Assembly (NCBI GenBank): GCA_002728755.1
Contig: PBVT01000047.1
Location: forward strand, 1-64,000
Source of the DNA: Myxococcales bacterium
Lineage (GTDB): Bacteria; Myxococcota_A; UBA9042; UBA3505
Length of the DNA: 64,000 nucleotides
Direction of reading: 5' to 3'
Shown here: in pieces, positions 55,705 to 62,437 of the stretch
How the letters are laid out: every line of letters starts with the position of its first letter
Numbering within the stretch: position 1 is the first letter of the stretch
Notes under the pieces: generated by a model
The model's database searches: none
What the model was told of the DNA's origin: nothing
What the model saw: the letters and a program-made list of their open reading frames with translations, nothing else
Program-made: the position numbers and the translations under genes

Positions 55705-56625
55705 TCAATCGAACGGTACGAATTCGGCTGTTCCATACAATTCCTGGTACGCAGCCCAGGTGGTTGGACAGACCGATACCTGACTGCACTGCTGGCATGG
55801 TTCTGGTTTCGGTCGAGACGTCTCTCTATGACTCTCCATCGACGTCTCTAAACGATGTACATCGGCTACTCGATGCCGACCGAAATTTTCAGAGACATCC
55901 GAACCTGCCTGCTCTTCGTCTCGGAGATGACATAATGGGACCGCCTCCGTGCCACTCGAAAGCCCCAGTTTCTCCGCCTCACGTATCGCCCGCCGAATCC
56001 AGGGACTCGCCTCCTCCAGTCGTACTAGCGGTGCCGTATTCCAACCTATCGGGGTCGCGACTGGACGAGAAAAATTGAACTGTACTCTAGGTGCTCCGAC
56101 ATTCGCGGCACGCCGTACAATCTGAGGTAATACCATATAATTTCGTTTCAAAACCGGGATCGTCAACATGTACGAGCACCGAGCTCTACTCAGATTTTTC
56201 AGACCGGCCACGACTTCACGAAACGCTCCAGGCGTCCCGTCGATGATGTCATGCAGCCCTGCCACATGTCCGAATAAGGAGACCTCGAAAAAATCAATAC
56301 CCGCGGCCAAGGCGGTGCGAAGATAGGCACCACGGGCCAAAGCACGCCCATTGGTCTGGACCTGAATAAACTCATAGCCGATTTCACGCGCGTGACGGAC
56401 CAAGGGTAAAAAGTCCTCTCGAAGCGTGACTTCACCACGCATGAACACTAATTCCGTACAGCCTGTCTCTCTCCCCTGCTTCATCTCGGCGAGAGCATCT
56501 CGTGCGCTCTTCTCACCGTGATGCGCAATATCGGCGATCGTGCAATGGGCGCATGCGCTATTACAGGTGGTTGTGAGTCGCAGCATCAAGCGCCCACCAG
56601 TGCTCTGGGCATTCTCAAGCGCCAT
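55705..56625 (-). CDS. Radical SAM enzyme (306 aa)
   Basis: A radical SAM protein with the cluster motif CNSACAHC (Cys21, 25, 28). A GGE-like SAM site (FMRGEVTLREDFLPLVRHAR) and QTNGRALA follow, as in peptide- and small-molecule-modifying members. Near the C-terminus CQQCSQVSVCPTTW gives three cysteines for a possible auxiliary cluster. The middle has LTIPVLKRNYMVLPQIVRRA. ATG 56625 has a strong GGAGG site lying in the end of the upstream fusion gene; the two overlap by 11 bases and are co-translated. The substrate is unknown. It is the last gene of the cluster. Confidence 0.9.
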   Translation of the reverse strand: MALENAQSTGGRLMLRLTTTCNSACAHCTIADIAHHGEKSARDALAEMKQGRETGCTELVFMRGEVTLREDFLPLVRHAREIGYEFIQVQTNGRALARGAYLRTALAAGIDFFEVSLFGHVAGLHDIIDGTPGAFREVVAGLKNLSRARCSYMLTIPVLKRNYMVLPQIVRRAANVGAPRVQFNFSRPVATPIGWNTAPLVRLEEASPWIRRAIREAEKLGLSSGTEAVPLCHLRDEEQAGSDVSENFGRHRVADVHRLETSMESHRETSRPKPEPCQQCSQVSVCPTTWAAYQELYGTAEFVPFD

Positions 56626-59600
56626 CCCCAGCCTCCTCGCGCCGACGCTCCGCTGCGATCTGGGCCGATAGCTCTCTTCGATCTACCAGATAATCTTCAA
56701 TCGCCAGATAATCTGCCCCCAACTGCAGGAAGGAGCTTATGGCATCTTCCGGACTCTCTACTATGGGCTCAAATGCCGTGTTGAACGACGTGTTGACCAC
56801 CATCGGGACCTTCGTCAGGGCCTCAAAATGTTCAATCATTCGGTAATAGCGGGGATTGACTTCCTTTTCGACAGACTGGGGTCGACTTGTGCCATCACTA
56901 TGCACCACTACCGGTATCTCTTCCTGCTTGTCCGAACGAACGGGAAGGGTAAACAACATGAACGGTGTCGTGAAAGGAGTCTCAAAATAGTCCGCTTCAC
57001 GGCCGGAAAGAATGGAAGGTCCTAGAGGTCTCCACCACTGGCGACGCTTAATAAGGTTCAGTCGATCTTTGAGTTCTCGTCGCCGAGGATCCGCTAATAT
57101 ACTTCTCGCCCCGAGAGCCCTTGGTCCAAATTCCATGCGTCCCTGGAACCAGCAGACCACCTTGCCATTCGCCAATAGCTCGGCTACCTCGCTTTCAAGA
57201 TCCGAACTCTTTCGCGCCTTGAGTCCGAACCGTTCCAACGTCTCGGATACCTGCTCATTGGTATATGACGGCCCCCAATAGGCATGATTCATATGCGTAC
57301 GAGGCATCTCTCCGGTGATCACTCGATGCGCCTCAAGGGCCGCTCCCAGTGCTGTGCCAGCGTCATGGGCCGCTGGTTGTACGTAGATCTCGTCTAATCC
57401 GAAATGAAGTCGTATCCGCTGATTCAAACTGCAGTTCAGGGCGACACCGCCGGCCAAACACATCGTGCGTGGCTTTCGCCCTTTCAACCCCCCTTCAATC
57501 AACGAGATAACCGTCTCTTCGAGGGCATCCTGTGTGCTTGCGGCGAGGGAAATATGCTCGTCGAGAAGAGGACCATCCCGGTGACGAGATAAATGGCCGA
57601 AAGCCTTATCCACGCCTTGCCAATGAATATTGTAGTCCTCGTGATCTCGAGCAGAGAGATAGGGCTTCATGTCCATGGAACCATCTCCCAGAGAGGCGAG
57701 TCCCATCGTGGAGCCCTGACCATAGTGACCGAAGCCGAGGATCAGAGTCACGGTCTCATATACACCACCAATCGTTGTGTCTCGTTGGGCCAGAATATCA
57801 AACGTTCGAACAAGACCGTCCTCGGTCGGTTCAAAGAACGCAGCCGTCTCTCGTTCACCTCGACCATCAACAGTGAAGACATAGGCATCTTCCAATCCAC
57901 TCACATGATACGCCGAAGCCGCATGCGCCAGATGGTGAGGAATGTAAATGAAGCGCCCTGACTGAACCGTCTTCGGGGGTTTCCGTGGATCATTCAAGGA
58001 ATAGGTCTCGATAAAACGACCGGGCACCCCATTCACAGCGATGTGGTCCACATCCTCAAGTTTGATACCCGCTTCCTCTAGAACATATCCGATGGATTCC
58101 CAGGGAAATGGCAGTTCAATTGGCAGGGTTGGATCCGAGACGACCGTCTCTCCTCGACGACCTGGAGGGGCCCAACCATATTGCTTCTTACGACGAAACC
58201 GCTCCTCCTGCACCGCAGCAATGAGCTCCCCATCACGAAGGAGAACAGCACCATGGTGCTGCTGTGTGGTCATAGCTACGCCGAGAATAATAGGTTTCGT
58301 ATTGGCTTCCCGAGGGTTCTGCCATGCCGGAGGGCGGGTCTCATTTGCGACGTCCTTTACCTCACGGCCGAGCATGGCCAACCAATCCAAACCTTTCGAC
58401 GCGATAACCTCAGGTTCCCAGGCCTGATCGAGAAAACCGGCCGGAGACAAGGCCATCTCCGGGCAGTGCTCAACACAGGCATAACAGCGAATACAACGTG
58501 CATCATCGATGATGGGAACCGGTCGGTCTGCAATCTCGTCACGCTGTTCAATAGTAATGCAATGCGTTGGGCAAACCCCCATACAACTCGCATGTCCATT
58601 GCACCGGTCCGGTTCCAAAGCAATCTTCTTGGAGCTGCTCGGCAATGGTTCCGAGGCCCGCACGGGTGTAGGACGTCGATGAACAGCTCGGGCTAGACCA
58701 AGAAGCCGAATACTCTCTACTTCTGATCCCACCACATCATTGTCTGCAGCACTCTGCAGGGCCGGCATCGTCTCCATGGAAGCGCCGGTGACCTCGATAC
58801 CAACCCGATCGATCGCCACAGAGAACGAACTAGCCATCAGCAGGTCGTATTGCCCTCCGTCAACAATCGACAATCGAACGTCCAGAATAGAGCGAAGATC
58901 GAAGACACTGCCATCGTCGGAGCGGACCAACCAATGCTCCATTCCCATCGACTGCTCGTGGGTGCGTAATAGCCCATTGAGCCACACTGACGGGCTATCG
59001 GGTGGTACCAGGGTGATGCCTAGTCGCACCCGCTCTTGACCTGTCTCATTGAGAACGACATCCGACGTGATCCCCTGCTGTCTCGTCTCCGGTTGCCAAA
59101 GAGATCCGAATTCTCCCAAGAGGGTCTGTCGTTGCTTTTCAGGCATCAGATTCAAGTATCCTGCCGTGCAAGCGTCAGCCCCGGTCTCCATCAACCTCGT
59201 AAGAGGAAAGATCGCATCAAACCAGCCCGCATCTTTCGGGGTCAGTGTGGGATCCGATTCCTGGTTCCAGGAGATGGAGTGGAGGGTTCCGCCCGCACGC
59301 TCACAACATGCCTGTAATTCCTTGAGCTTCTCCCTGTGTTCTTCCTTGTCCGGGTCGTACGCAACCGCCAAGCCGACATAATGGCTCAAGTCCGAACAGA
59401 TACCCATTAACGCCTCAACGACTTCAAAGCGTGGCTCATCTGGACCCAAACGAAGGGTTAATAGGGTACGAAGTGTCACTTCACGTCGATGGGAACAATC
59501 GATACTTGCCCCCGATTTACGTGTCATCGTCTGCAAGCAGGCCTGACGCCAGGGAGCTACCGCAGATGCGTGTTCACCACAGACCTGAACGGGCTCTTCA

Positions 59601-60757
59601 TCGCGTAGAGAGCACGGAGTCAAAAAACCATCGGCGGATATAAACATCCAGCCACTTCCGCCTGGGCACCCTCCCGGCCCTTCTACCGGATCGAAGGAGA
59701 GGTCCGAACAATCAGGCATCTCGTCTACCCGAGAACATGTCGGCCCTTTTTCCTCAAATCCAAGGTCGTACGTCTTCGCAACCGCTTGCCAGGACGAGTC
59801 TCCCGTGGGTGCCAGTCGAATACCCGACACACCAGACTCCACCAAAAGCCTCAGCTTCTCGGCATCAGGCGGTGGGTCATTGCCCACTAGCCAGACCTCT
59901 AACCCAACCCGTTTTGCGAAGGAGATAAGGCCGGGCAGATCACGGCGCGATCCAAAGTCCGTCCCGGTGAGGACAAGACGTGGTGCGCGTAAATCACGTA
60001 GGGACTGAATAAGCTGATACCCCTGCGCCGTACTCAATTCGTTCGGGTGGCGCGCCGTGCCATCGGCATCTCGGCCCTGCGTAATCTCCCAGACGACCTC
60101 TCGGGGCGTAAAGTCCGGCACATCCAGAATAAAGCGCGATAGGCTTCCCAGACCATCGCCGACCAATTCCAACGCCCGTCGTAGTTCCTCCACACCACCA
60201 CCCGCGGACACAAGAGAAACCTCTGCAGGACGGCCTTTGCCAATTCCATCTACGGGGTGCATTCCACGCAAAGACGAATCCGACTCGGGCGAAATTAATG
60301 CTGTTCGCGGCTCTTCTACCAAACCACTGTCGGGCCGGATCTCTACCCCTACTCCCCGCTGCTCACAGACGTGTAGGGCAGCCTTCAGCCAGGGGGTGAG
60401 TTCAGCATCCGTAGGCACAGGCACACCGCCAGCCTTCCAGAAACTGATACCTGCGACTGAATCAAATCGATCATCTACAAAGCGAATAAGGTCCGGCAAT
60501 TCCCGATAGGTTGCCAACGTGATGGGGTGCTCCAAAACCACAGAGCATCCTTTCGAGAGCAGGTCTTCAATGGATGAAGCGACGGCTTCAAACTGACCAT
60601 AGGCATAGGTGGCTGCTTCAAAAAGCTCACCGACATGGGATGGGAACAATATATGAACATCGCCCTTTTGCGAGGCTGCCTGCGCAAAAAGGGCTGGCCA
60701 CGAATCCGGATCGCGAAAGTCACTAATCGTCTGTTTGGTTTCGTGTACCGTGGTCAT
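56615..60757 (-). CDS. Fusion: cluster-less radical-SAM/SPASM-like region, 2x[4Fe-4S] ferredoxin, NodU/CmcH carbamoyltransferase
   Basis: A 1380-residue protein with an unusual architecture. Near residue 221 VVWEITQGRDADGTARHPNE, then LSTAQGYQLIQSL and LVLTGTDFGSRRDLPGLISF, follows the sequence grammar of radical SAM domains but has no CxxxCxxC. A Cys set with ISADGFLTPCSLRDE (about 370-430) is SPASM-like. Residues 719-765 are a bacterial-type ferredoxin (CNGHASCMGVCPTHC and CIRCYACVEHCP). From about 825 a carbamoyltransferase of the NodU/CmcH/TobZ family has QEERFRRKKQYG, HHLAHAASAYHVSG, MEFGPRALGARSILADPR and VVNTSFN. ATG 60757 is preferred over GTG 60775. It lies between two radical SAM genes. 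Confidence 0.85.
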   Translation of the reverse strand: MTTVHETKQTISDFRDPDSWPALFAQAASQKGDVHILFPSHVGELFEAATYAYGQFEAVASSIEDLLSKGCSVVLEHPITLATYRELPDLIRFVDDRFDSVAGISFWKAGGVPVPTDAELTPWLKAALHVCEQRGVGVEIRPDSGLVEEPRTALISPESDSSLRGMHPVDGIGKGRPAEVSLVSAGGGVEELRRALELVGDGLGSLSRFILDVPDFTPREVVWEITQGRDADGTARHPNELSTAQGYQLIQSLRDLRAPRLVLTGTDFGSRRDLPGLISFAKRVGLEVWLVGNDPPPDAEKLRLLVESGVSGIRLAPTGDSSWQAVAKTYDLGFEEKGPTCSRVDEMPDCSDLSFDPVEGPGGCPGGSGWMFISADGFLTPCSLRDEEPVQVCGEHASAVAPWRQACLQTMTRKSGASIDCSHRREVTLRTLLTLRLGPDEPRFEVVEALMGICSDLSHYVGLAVAYDPDKEEHREKLKELQACCERAGGTLHSISWNQESDPTLTPKDAGWFDAIFPLTRLMETGADACTAGYLNLMPEKQRQTLLGEFGSLWQPETRQQGITSDVVLNETGQERVRLGITLVPPDSPSVWLNGLLRTHEQSMGMEHWLVRSDDGSVFDLRSILDVRLSIVDGGQYDLLMASSFSVAIDRVGIEVTGASMETMPALQSAADNDVVGSEVESIRLLGLARAVHRRPTPVRASEPLPSSSKKIALEPDRCNGHASCMGVCPTHCITIEQRDEIADRPVPIIDDARCIRCYACVEHCPEMALSPAGFLDQAWEPEVIASKGLDWLAMLGREVKDVANETRPPAWQNPREANTKPIILGVAMTTQQHHGAVLLRDGELIAAVQEERFRRKKQYGWAPPGRRGETVVSDPTLPIELPFPWESIGYVLEEAGIKLEDVDHIAVNGVPGRFIETYSLNDPRKPPKTVQSGRFIYIPHHLAHAASAYHVSGLEDAYVFTVDGRGERETAAFFEPTEDGLVRTFDILAQRDTTIGGVYETVTLILGFGHYGQGSTMGLASLGDGSMDMKPYLSARDHEDYNIHWQGVDKAFGHLSRHRDGPLLDEHISLAASTQDALEETVISLIEGGLKGRKPRTMCLAGGVALNCSLNQRIRLHFGLDEIYVQPAAHDAGTALGAALEAHRVITGEMPRTHMNHAYWGPSYTNEQVSETLERFGLKARKSSDLESEVAELLANGKVVCWFQGRMEFGPRALGARSILADPRRRELKDRLNLIKRRQWWRPLGPSILSGREADYFETPFTTPFMLFTLPVRSDKQEEIPVVVHSDGTSRPQSVEKEVNPRYYRMIEHFEALTKVPMVVNTSFNTAFEPIVESPEDAISSFLQLGADYLAIEDYLVDRRELSAQIAAERRREEAGDGA

Positions 60758-60823
60758 TGGCGTAGTCGACTCCACAGCCCACTACGAGCCATTCGTGCGA
60801 TAATCGAAAAGAACTCGTGGAGT

Positions 60824-62437
60824 TCAGGCCGTTGCACGCTGCTGGCCACGAAGTGCCGCTGCGACGGAATGCATCATACTTCGACGTGAATCCTTATCAA
60901 AGTCTTCCGGGAAATCCCAGGAGACCTCAATTCGGTCCTTTTCATTTCGGTTCAGATGCACCGACGCGCGCATACCATCGGCACTTTCCAGATAGGCGGA
61001 CGCACCGTTTGTGTCGAGATTCGGATGGGCGCCAACAACCTTCCAGCCCGGAACAGCATCATTCGACATGAGCCGTTTTAACCGTCGCTGAATGGATGGC
61101 GTCACCATTGTATCGGCCCCGAATACGGTCCGACGTTTACGAATACGATCGGAAGACACCGGCGTACGAGCCATACCTGGACACGATTGCGACAAGGCAT
61201 CGAAAAACTCTCCGGCGATTGTGTTTGCGATATGGTCTGGCACGTTCGCCGATTCAATCCGCATACAGAACTCGGTATGTTCTCCGTCACCCCCTCCCGG
61301 CATATTCGGTGGGACTAACACGACCCGGATTTCCTGGTCGTCTCCGGAACGTAACCTGCATACGACGCGGCGCATACGTTCATCTTCCTCTCGCTCCCGA
61401 AAGCTCCAACCAGAAGGTAAGGTCTCTCCGAGGGCATCAAGGTGCGGTTTGATTCGCATAACAAAGAGTCGGTAATCCGTGTCCAGCTCCCGCACCTTGG
61501 TCATCGAAACGGGTCGGAAGATATCCACGCCTCGCCGACGCGCGTAGAGATCAAAGAAGCCACTACATTGCGACTCAAAAGAGCAGGAGTTGCAGCTATC
61601 CAGCTTCAACTTATCTGTACTCTTATCCTGGTACTTGTCCCACGGATCGGACAGTTCGGAGTCTCCATCGACGGCCACTGTAAAGGTAAGATTACCTTCG
61701 TGATGGATTTTGTGCCCCCACTCGGGAACCACGCAATATGGGAGGTTCCCAATATTTACGTCGAAGTCCGGGGATATCGTATCGAAGTCCGTAAGCATGG
61801 TTCGCAGAACACGACCAAGATCTTCGTAATCCGGCATGATCCCATCGAGATAATCCTCACTCCGATCTCCCGAATCACGTGGTCGAACCATATCGAGATG
61901 GACCTGCCAGATATCATATTTTCGTACCAACTCCGGCAGATGCACCAAAGAACGGTAATTCTCTTCGACCACACACATATTCACGCTGAGTTTTTGACCC
62001 ATTCGGCTGAGCGTCTCAAGACCCGTAACGATTTTCTGGAACGCACCTTTCTTCTTGGTGGTGAAATCATGGGTCTCTTCATCGCCACCCTGAAGGCTTA
62101 TACGCCAGGCAATATTGTCGCCAAGGGCCATGACCTTACGGAGCCACTTCTCGTTCCAGAGACGAACCCCATTGGTGAATATTACGACCTCTTCAAACTC
62201 ACAGGACACGGCGTGCTCAAGGAGCTCCATAAAGCTATGGTGAATCGTAGGCTCCCCTCCTAGAAAGGTGAACTTGGGTATTCCCATCGCCTTGGCGCGA
62301 TCGATTTCCGAGCGGATCAATTCGGTATCGACCGGCTTTGCCAATCGAAGTTCAGTCATCTGGCCGCTTACACAAAAAACACAACGGTTATTGCATACAT
62401 GACCAAGCTGGATTTCAAATCTCTGATCTGGTTCCAC
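60824..62437 (-). CDS. Radical SAM enzyme with C-terminal extension (537 aa)
   Basis: A radical SAM protein with the motif CNNRCVFC (Cys15, 19, 22) and the SAM-binding FLGGEPTIHHSFMELLEHA. Other conserved-looking strings are VIFTNGVRLW, ISLQGGDEETHD and NIGNLPYCVVPEWGHKIHHE. About residue 285 CNSCSFESQC, then SGFFDLYARRRG, provides cysteines for an auxiliary cluster. From about 330 on is a charged region of unknown fold (SGWSFREREEDERMRRVVC to the end). It starts with GTG 62437, without a strong ribosome site, and is followed after 66 bases by the fusion gene. The substrate is unknown. Confidence 0.9.
   Translation of the reverse strand: MEPDQRFEIQLGHVCNNRCVFCVSGQMTELRLAKPVDTELIRSEIDRAKAMGIPKFTFLGGEPTIHHSFMELLEHAVSCEFEEVVIFTNGVRLWNEKWLRKVMALGDNIAWRISLQGGDEETHDFTTKKKGAFQKIVTGLETLSRMGQKLSVNMCVVEENYRSLVHLPELVRKYDIWQVHLDMVRPRDSGDRSEDYLDGIMPDYEDLGRVLRTMLTDFDTISPDFDVNIGNLPYCVVPEWGHKIHHEGNLTFTVAVDGDSELSDPWDKYQDKSTDKLKLDSCNSCSFESQCSGFFDLYARRRGVDIFRPVSMTKVRELDTDYRLFVMRIKPHLDALGETLPSGWSFREREEDERMRRVVCRLRSGDDQEIRVVLVPPNMPGGGDGEHTEFCMRIESANVPDHIANTIAGEFFDALSQSCPGMARTPVSSDRIRKRRTVFGADTMVTPSIQRRLKRLMSNDAVPGWKVVGAHPNLDTNGASAYLESADGMRASVHLNRNEKDRIEVSWDFPEDFDKDSRRSMMHSVAAALRGQQRATA

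Follow-up and report, generated by a model that had tools for sequence, protein, structure and literature searches.

A class III carbamoyltransferase subfamily paired with, and often fused to, a radical SAM enzyme and a ferredoxin domain in Myxococcota

Analysis of a 64,000-nucleotide stretch of myxobacterial DNA (here, the window) identified a cluster of three genes, designated A, B, and C, whose invariant core is a distinct carbamoyltransferase subfamily (that of B) together with the radical SAM enzyme C, A being optional. Among 379 genomes sampled from the phylum Myxococcota, all 11 orthologues of C detected at E ≤ 3.4e-62 lay beside a B-type carbamoyltransferase or were fused to one. Because this carbamoyltransferase is always paired, and often fused, with one radical SAM enzyme and an iron-sulfur carrier, the two reaction types, radical chemistry and carbamoylation, are probably the work of one dedicated machine. 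Our preferred reading, for which we would claim slightly less than an even chance, is that the carbamoyltransferase of B and C form a single conserved module, fed by the ferredoxin, with both activities directed at one small polar substrate.

A, B, and C were called as three intact minus-strand open reading frames (ORFs) within window positions 55705 to 62437 (Table 1). ORF calling, Pfam, and motifs confirmed the initial annotation of two intact radical SAM genes flanking a fusion gene. A is separated from B by 66 bases as counted from the ATG of B, or by 48 from its GTG, and B and C overlap by 11 bases; the base composition of the region resembles that of the remainder of the window. The concern that the fusion might be a frame-error artifact of one genome was dispelled by its relatives in other genomes: the carbamoyltransferase of B is 60% identical to a relative elsewhere and A, B, and C recur as a group in cultured myxobacteria, which argues against both chance and a frame artifact. 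Immediately 3′ of the A stop codon, a hairpin, GAACTCCACGAGTTC, followed by TTTTC (window 60811-60825, minus strand), could set A apart from B, such matches being at chance level in the scan; promoter and terminator scans likewise gave matches no better than chance.

Table 1. Features of the A-B-C cluster and of a gene adjoining related clusters (window coordinates unless a locus is named)
Feature	Position	Strand	Description and basis
A, radical SAM protein	60824..62437	(-)	537 aa; ORF list, Pfam, whole-length identity to relatives
B, fusion protein	56615..60775	(-)	1386 aa from GTG; 1380 aa from ATG at 60757; ORF list, Pfam
B ~50-145, putative remnant of second half of C-type radical SAM barrel	60341..60628	(-)	hhalign prob 86%, P 5.6e-6
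B 235-317, radical SAM half-barrel without CxxxCxxC	59825..60073	(-)	TIGR04053 1.8e-7, AhbD 2e-5, PqqE 2e-4
B 370-427, cysteine rich, apparently decayed SPASM-like	59495..59668	(-)	Cysteines 370, 388, 399, 413, 427; sequence reading
B 619-693, tentatively like C-terminal part of DUF362 (PF04015)	58697..58921	(-)	hhalign prob 88%, P 3.3e-6, 75 columns
B 718-777, ferredoxin domain	58445..58624	(-)	Pfam, alignment, sequence
B 825-1371, class III (TobZ/GdmN/NovN-type) carbamoyltransferase, Kae1-like + YrdC-like	56663..58303	(-)	Pfam; TobZ 8.3e-80; iron ligands
C, radical SAM protein	55705..56625	(-)	306 aa; ORF list, Pfam, alignment
AlkA-like DNA glycosylase gene	L088:3022-3918; L082:5466-6359; also L081		Adjoins B end

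A and C both belong to the radical SAM superfamily, each combining a PF04055 (Radical_SAM) match above the cut-off (4.7e-24 and 85.9 bits for A; 5.7e-14 and 53.1 bits for C) with a CxxxCxxC motif. In A the motif is CNNRCVFC (residues 15 to 22), accompanied by four more cysteines in an auxiliary-cluster pattern (235, 282, 285, and 291) and by a C-terminal extension (approximately residues 345 to 537). In C it is CNSACAHC (residues 21 to 28, within CxxxCxHCT at 21 to 29), and the auxiliary-cluster cysteines are 232, 277, 280, and 286; core and auxiliary cysteines are kept in 15 of 15 aligned sequences, and the signature is CxxxCxHCTxxD plus C..C.....CP..W. The top match of C, by sequence and by fold, is BlsE, a sugar-nucleoside decarboxylase. 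SkfB, a maturase of ribosomally synthesized peptides (RiPPs), is among the second-best matches, so that a peptide substrate is also conceivable.

The target of the radical SAM enzymes might indeed be a peptide of ribosomal origin or a folded protein, with the carbamoyltransferase acting on a side chain much as HypF acts on a HypE cysteine, an alternative we regard as unlikely. In its favor, A and C score highest in NCBIfam against HxsC4 and HxsC, the closest solved relatives include SkfB, and 5.3 kb past the window end there is a related radical SAM array that includes a Tat-exported protein of 174 aa. All named-family scores, however, fall far short of the curated cut-offs (97 to 100 bits against 500 for HxsC4; 61 to 87 against 268 for HxsC), and no precursor peptide of a His-Xaa-Ser system was found nearby. 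Moreover, C starts straight at the barrel, which leaves no space for a leader-binding domain, the fused loci have no partner protein in common, and a search for a small ORF or precursor peptide conserved across the 11 clusters returned only Arg-rich chance matches.

B conforms to its initial description as a pseudo-radical-SAM/ferredoxin/carbamoyltransferase fusion, barrel remnants, Fer4-type domains (best 1.6e-7), Carbam_trans_N (9.8e-36), and Carbam_trans_C (4.2e-65) all being found. No CxxxCxxC occurs in residues 1 to 700, where all that is left of radical SAM domains is barrel remnants. That at residues ~50 to 145 is present also in the B relative of genome G244 (contig C642), and residues 235 to 317 match other radical SAM families over their first half; aligning residues 180 to 440 directly to the C family was uninformative. 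The cysteine-rich segment that follows looks like a decayed SPASM domain from its residue pattern, with no profile match. The likeness to DUF362 is tentative because Pfam gave no match above the cut-off in the middle of B and hhalign backed the last 75 columns only. An AlphaFold model of residues 1 to 830 reached a pLDDT of 46. In the ferredoxin domain, the second cluster motif (CIRCYACVEHC) is complete and the first (CNGHASCMGVC) carries a His replacing one Cys, so that the B protein of the window falls short of two complete CxxCxxCxxxC motifs; the six aligned single-chain forms have both in complete form, and the first has only three cysteines in the Plesiocystis and Enhygromyxa proteins. 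A decayed adenylation domain considered for the N terminus of the latter proteins was dropped, Pfam, NCBIfam, and PDB giving no support.

The initial assignment of the C terminus of B to the NodU/CmcH/TobZ type also held. Carbam_trans_N and Carbam_trans_C lie on one chain, the mark of class III, and TobZ is the closest solved relative. Iron ligands of class III carbamoyltransferases have been reported for GdmN (PMC9633730); all are kept in B (H947, H951, D970, and D1138), and the His, His, Asp, Asp set of the Kae1-like domain is retained in 13 of 13 aligned subfamily members. The carbamoyltransferase is complete and looks active. Against the NodU family (NF041651), B scored 149 bits, well below the curated cut-off of 1000. 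B-type carbamoyltransferases form one clade in the tree (support 95/98), apart from the ordinary ones; across 52 genomes of the taxonomic class, close relatives of the B domain match at E ≤ 8e-129 with 45 to 60% identity, and ordinary carbamoyltransferases start at 5e-89. In GdmN, H27 in loop 1 is the general base and its Asn mutant is inactive (PMC9633730). The aligned position is Q, M, L, E, or A in all 13 members, with H or N two residues further on in a longer loop, and loop 1 of the subfamily may be re-registered relative to GdmN. With the general-base His off the aligned position, transfer to an alcohol is not assured and the acceptor may be something else; we treat the difference as a caution rather than a finding because many ordinary carbamoyltransferases of the class, too, carry Asn there. 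B terminates soon after the YrdC-like domain and the subfamily lacks the GdmN dimerization domain; carbamoyltransferases without that domain usually have polar acceptors (PMC9633730).

The pairing of this carbamoyltransferase with C takes two forms. C adjoins or lies near the carbamoyltransferase gene in five genomes (that of the window, G000; G244; Plesiocystis; and two Enhygromyxa) and is fused to it in six (G009, G031, G067, G114, G176, and G181), the G176 fusion being interrupted by a contig end and deduced from a common open frame. A ferredoxin was seen in five of the six single-chain fusions, the sixth ending at a contig end, and in G114, G031, and G181 the order on the single chain is ferredoxin-carbamoyltransferase-C. 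Of 11 fusion proteins aligned, 10 have the ferredoxin domain N terminal to the carbamoyltransferase. In G244, a 1001-aa B relative overlaps C by 1 base and has no ferredoxin although C is adjacent. A twelfth case, again a single-chain fusion, came from metagenome KLAP139. The next-best C matches, in G003 (2e-54) and G148 (6e-49), were not linked, and in G148 the B-type carbamoyltransferase has no radical SAM neighbor. The Plesiocystis, Enhygromyxa, and KLAP139 loci were found by a genome scan with the C-family alignment, which is incomplete since its patterns miss CDxxC members and which constitutes all coverage outside Myxococcota; a single-sequence scan of genome contigs with B gave no match.

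Radical SAM candidates number in the dozens in class genomes, alongside several carbamoyltransferases, so chance rearrangement of two abundant enzyme kinds, with no joint pathway, has to be considered, the more so as A occurs by itself elsewhere. The linkage largely refutes this and makes it highly improbable: one C group is tied to one carbamoyltransferase clade in 11 of 11 cases, fused or split according to lineage, and the groupings in the C and carbamoyltransferase trees broadly match. The module is accessory and patchy, as follows from C being present in 11 of the 379 phylum genomes and in 3 of the 29 genomes of the Plesiocystis family, all of one genus. A mobile origin was considered and rejected, given that no plasmid or phage record matched over 80% of the fused protein, no viral contig encoded C, and composition was normal.

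All three genes occur together in the genome of the window, Plesiocystis pacifica SIR-1, and Enhygromyxa salina SWB005 and SWB007, four genomes that span two separate lineages and differ in gene order, B being divergent from C and A in Plesiocystis and Enhygromyxa. The A proteins of these genera are 45 to 46% identical to that of the window over the full length. With four complete clusters, the constant link between carbamoyltransferase and C, and the six fusions, the proposal of a conserved system stands. The neighborhood comparison suggested at the outset bore out the company of C, which in all 11 cases is with the carbamoyltransferase, but not that of A, which is often alone and does not belong to the core. 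Relatives of A (≤1e-71) are present in roughly half the genomes of the class and, in the loci read, are solitary and away from the carbamoyltransferase; G114 has no A match at 1e-20, and identity to A is only ~24% for the A-like gene adjoining the G031 fusion. The TonB receptor upstream, whose conservation was also suggested as a check, found no counterpart at the related loci.

As to how the module might work, we infer that electrons from a low-potential donor would enter the ferredoxin domain of B, which in related genomes is on the same chain as C, and would be passed to the [4Fe-4S] cluster of C (and to that of A, in genomes that have it) for SAM cleavage to the 5′-deoxyadenosyl radical. 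C, with its auxiliary cluster, would then remodel a small polar substrate. The YrdC-like domain would convert carbamoyl phosphate and ATP to carbamoyl-adenylate, and the iron-containing Kae1-like domain would place the carbamoyl group on that same substrate, either ahead of the radical reaction or following it. Where all three genes occur, A could provide a second radical step, and the decayed N-terminal radical SAM pieces of B may serve as scaffold or docking surface. A small polar substrate is favored by the BlsE-like barrel and by the missing GdmN dimerization domain. Consistent with the former, in a model of the 1086-aa G114 chain (pLDDT 76; TobZ fold, Foldseek E 2.4e-44) the radical SAM barrel is closest to BlsE, followed by SkfB, tetraether synthase, MoaA, and DesII. 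Against a joint action on a small molecule, no substrate genes flank the module; the missing ferredoxin in G244, the three-cysteine first cluster in Plesiocystis and Enhygromyxa, and the G148 carbamoyltransferase lacking a radical SAM neighbor also count against the proposal. The scaffold-building secondary-metabolite pathway envisaged in the initial annotation is not borne out either, as the flanks lack such genes and the fused module is one gene among unrelated neighbors.

Other targets would fit parts of these data. The module might combine a radical step with carbamoylation on a base or nucleoside, whether in tRNA, in DNA, or as a free nucleotide. In line with this, the BlsE substrate is a nucleoside, 5-hydroxymethylcytosine in DNA is carbamoylated by an enzyme with the same Pfam families (PMC8670742), and in Plesiocystis and both Enhygromyxa an AlkA-like DNA glycosylase gene (NF007641, 1.7e-7) directly adjoins the B end (Table 1). 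Such a role is distinctly unlikely: the glycosylase is confined to that genus, other loci show no nucleotide-metabolism genes, and the patchy distribution is unlike that of a core tRNA modification. We consider it quite improbable that the carbamoyl, radical, and iron-sulfur parts build a metal ligand or an unusual cofactor by analogy with HypF/HypE. HypF, a class II carbamoyltransferase, follows a similar carbamoyl-AMP route (PMC9633730) in a comparable iron-sulfur context, and the carbamoyltransferase here is joined to a ferredoxin and perhaps to a DUF362 part; the nearest relative by sequence and fold is nonetheless class III TobZ, not HypF, and no metalloenzyme is co-located. Equally doubtful is a variant in which the radical SAM domain, with the ferredoxin as in-chain donor, acts on the carbamoyl group or a carbamoylated intermediate to give, for example, a carbon-bound carboxamide or nitrile-type group; if true, this chemistry would be new to carbamoyltransferases.

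Class III carbamoyltransferases have so far been tied to secondary metabolites and, in phages, to modified DNA bases; the module would give them a further tailoring machine. With TobZ, GdmN, NovN, VtdB, and NodU, its enzyme has in common the TobZ fold, the Kae1-like then YrdC-like order, the four iron ligands, and the GPRALG and NTSFN motifs. It differs from them as a separate clade fused to a ferredoxin, with a radical SAM enzyme fused or adjacent, with a different loop 1 in which the general-base His is off the aligned position, and with no GdmN dimerization domain. C, for its part, shares the CxxxCxxC barrel and C-terminal auxiliary-cluster cysteines with the Twitch/SPASM enzymes BlsE, SkfB, MoaA, and HxsC/HxsC4, but scores well under all curated family cut-offs and has its own signature and a constant carbamoyltransferase partner. 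The phage 5-hydroxymethylcytosine enzyme (MetaGPA, PMC8670742), of the same families and with a role outside secondary metabolism, is partnered by thymidylate-synthase-type hydroxymethylases, not by a radical SAM enzyme. A search of the open-access literature found no description of a radical SAM-carbamoyltransferase module, in agreement with the initial impression of a novel layout. The parts are known enzyme kinds; what appears to be undescribed is how they are combined, most notably in a single ferredoxin-carbamoyltransferase-radical SAM chain. Such a chain would be a self-contained radical/carbamoylation enzyme, and its natural occurrence makes the question testable with one expressed protein, the three-gene version being available in the cultured myxobacteria P. 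pacifica SIR-1 and E. salina.

Several further loci combine related parts. Solitary A-like radical SAM genes lie directly 3′ of a gene for a ~152-aa protein (L129, L131, and L132), an arrangement conserved in one family of the class. In G244, a gene on contig C588 (L135:1478-3331) adjoins that of a full-length A relative (33% identity) and specifies a protein of 617 aa with two radical SAM motifs, both intact; contig C699 carries a second paralogous operon (L036:1835-6232) comprising a same-clade carbamoyltransferase, a 355-aa radical SAM protein, and a protein of 553+ aa that joins a decayed radical SAM unit to an intact one. A sugar-type region on contig C23 of the window's genome (L044 and L045) holds three carbamoyltransferases of the ordinary kind, and a SPASM radical SAM gene overlaps one of them; nearby is a divergent nitrogenase-like set (a NifH/CfbC-like protein of 275 aa and Oxidored_nitro proteins of 468 and 751 aa) that scores far below the cut-offs of all named families. 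On the same contig as the window, the array beyond its end (L043:15265-19780) consists of the Tat-signal 174-aa gene and then three tandem radical SAM genes (403, 577, and 305 aa) on the other strand. Of 52 class genomes, 42 have the 577-aa protein and 25 the Tat protein, marking a class-wide radical SAM array with a possible exported substrate.
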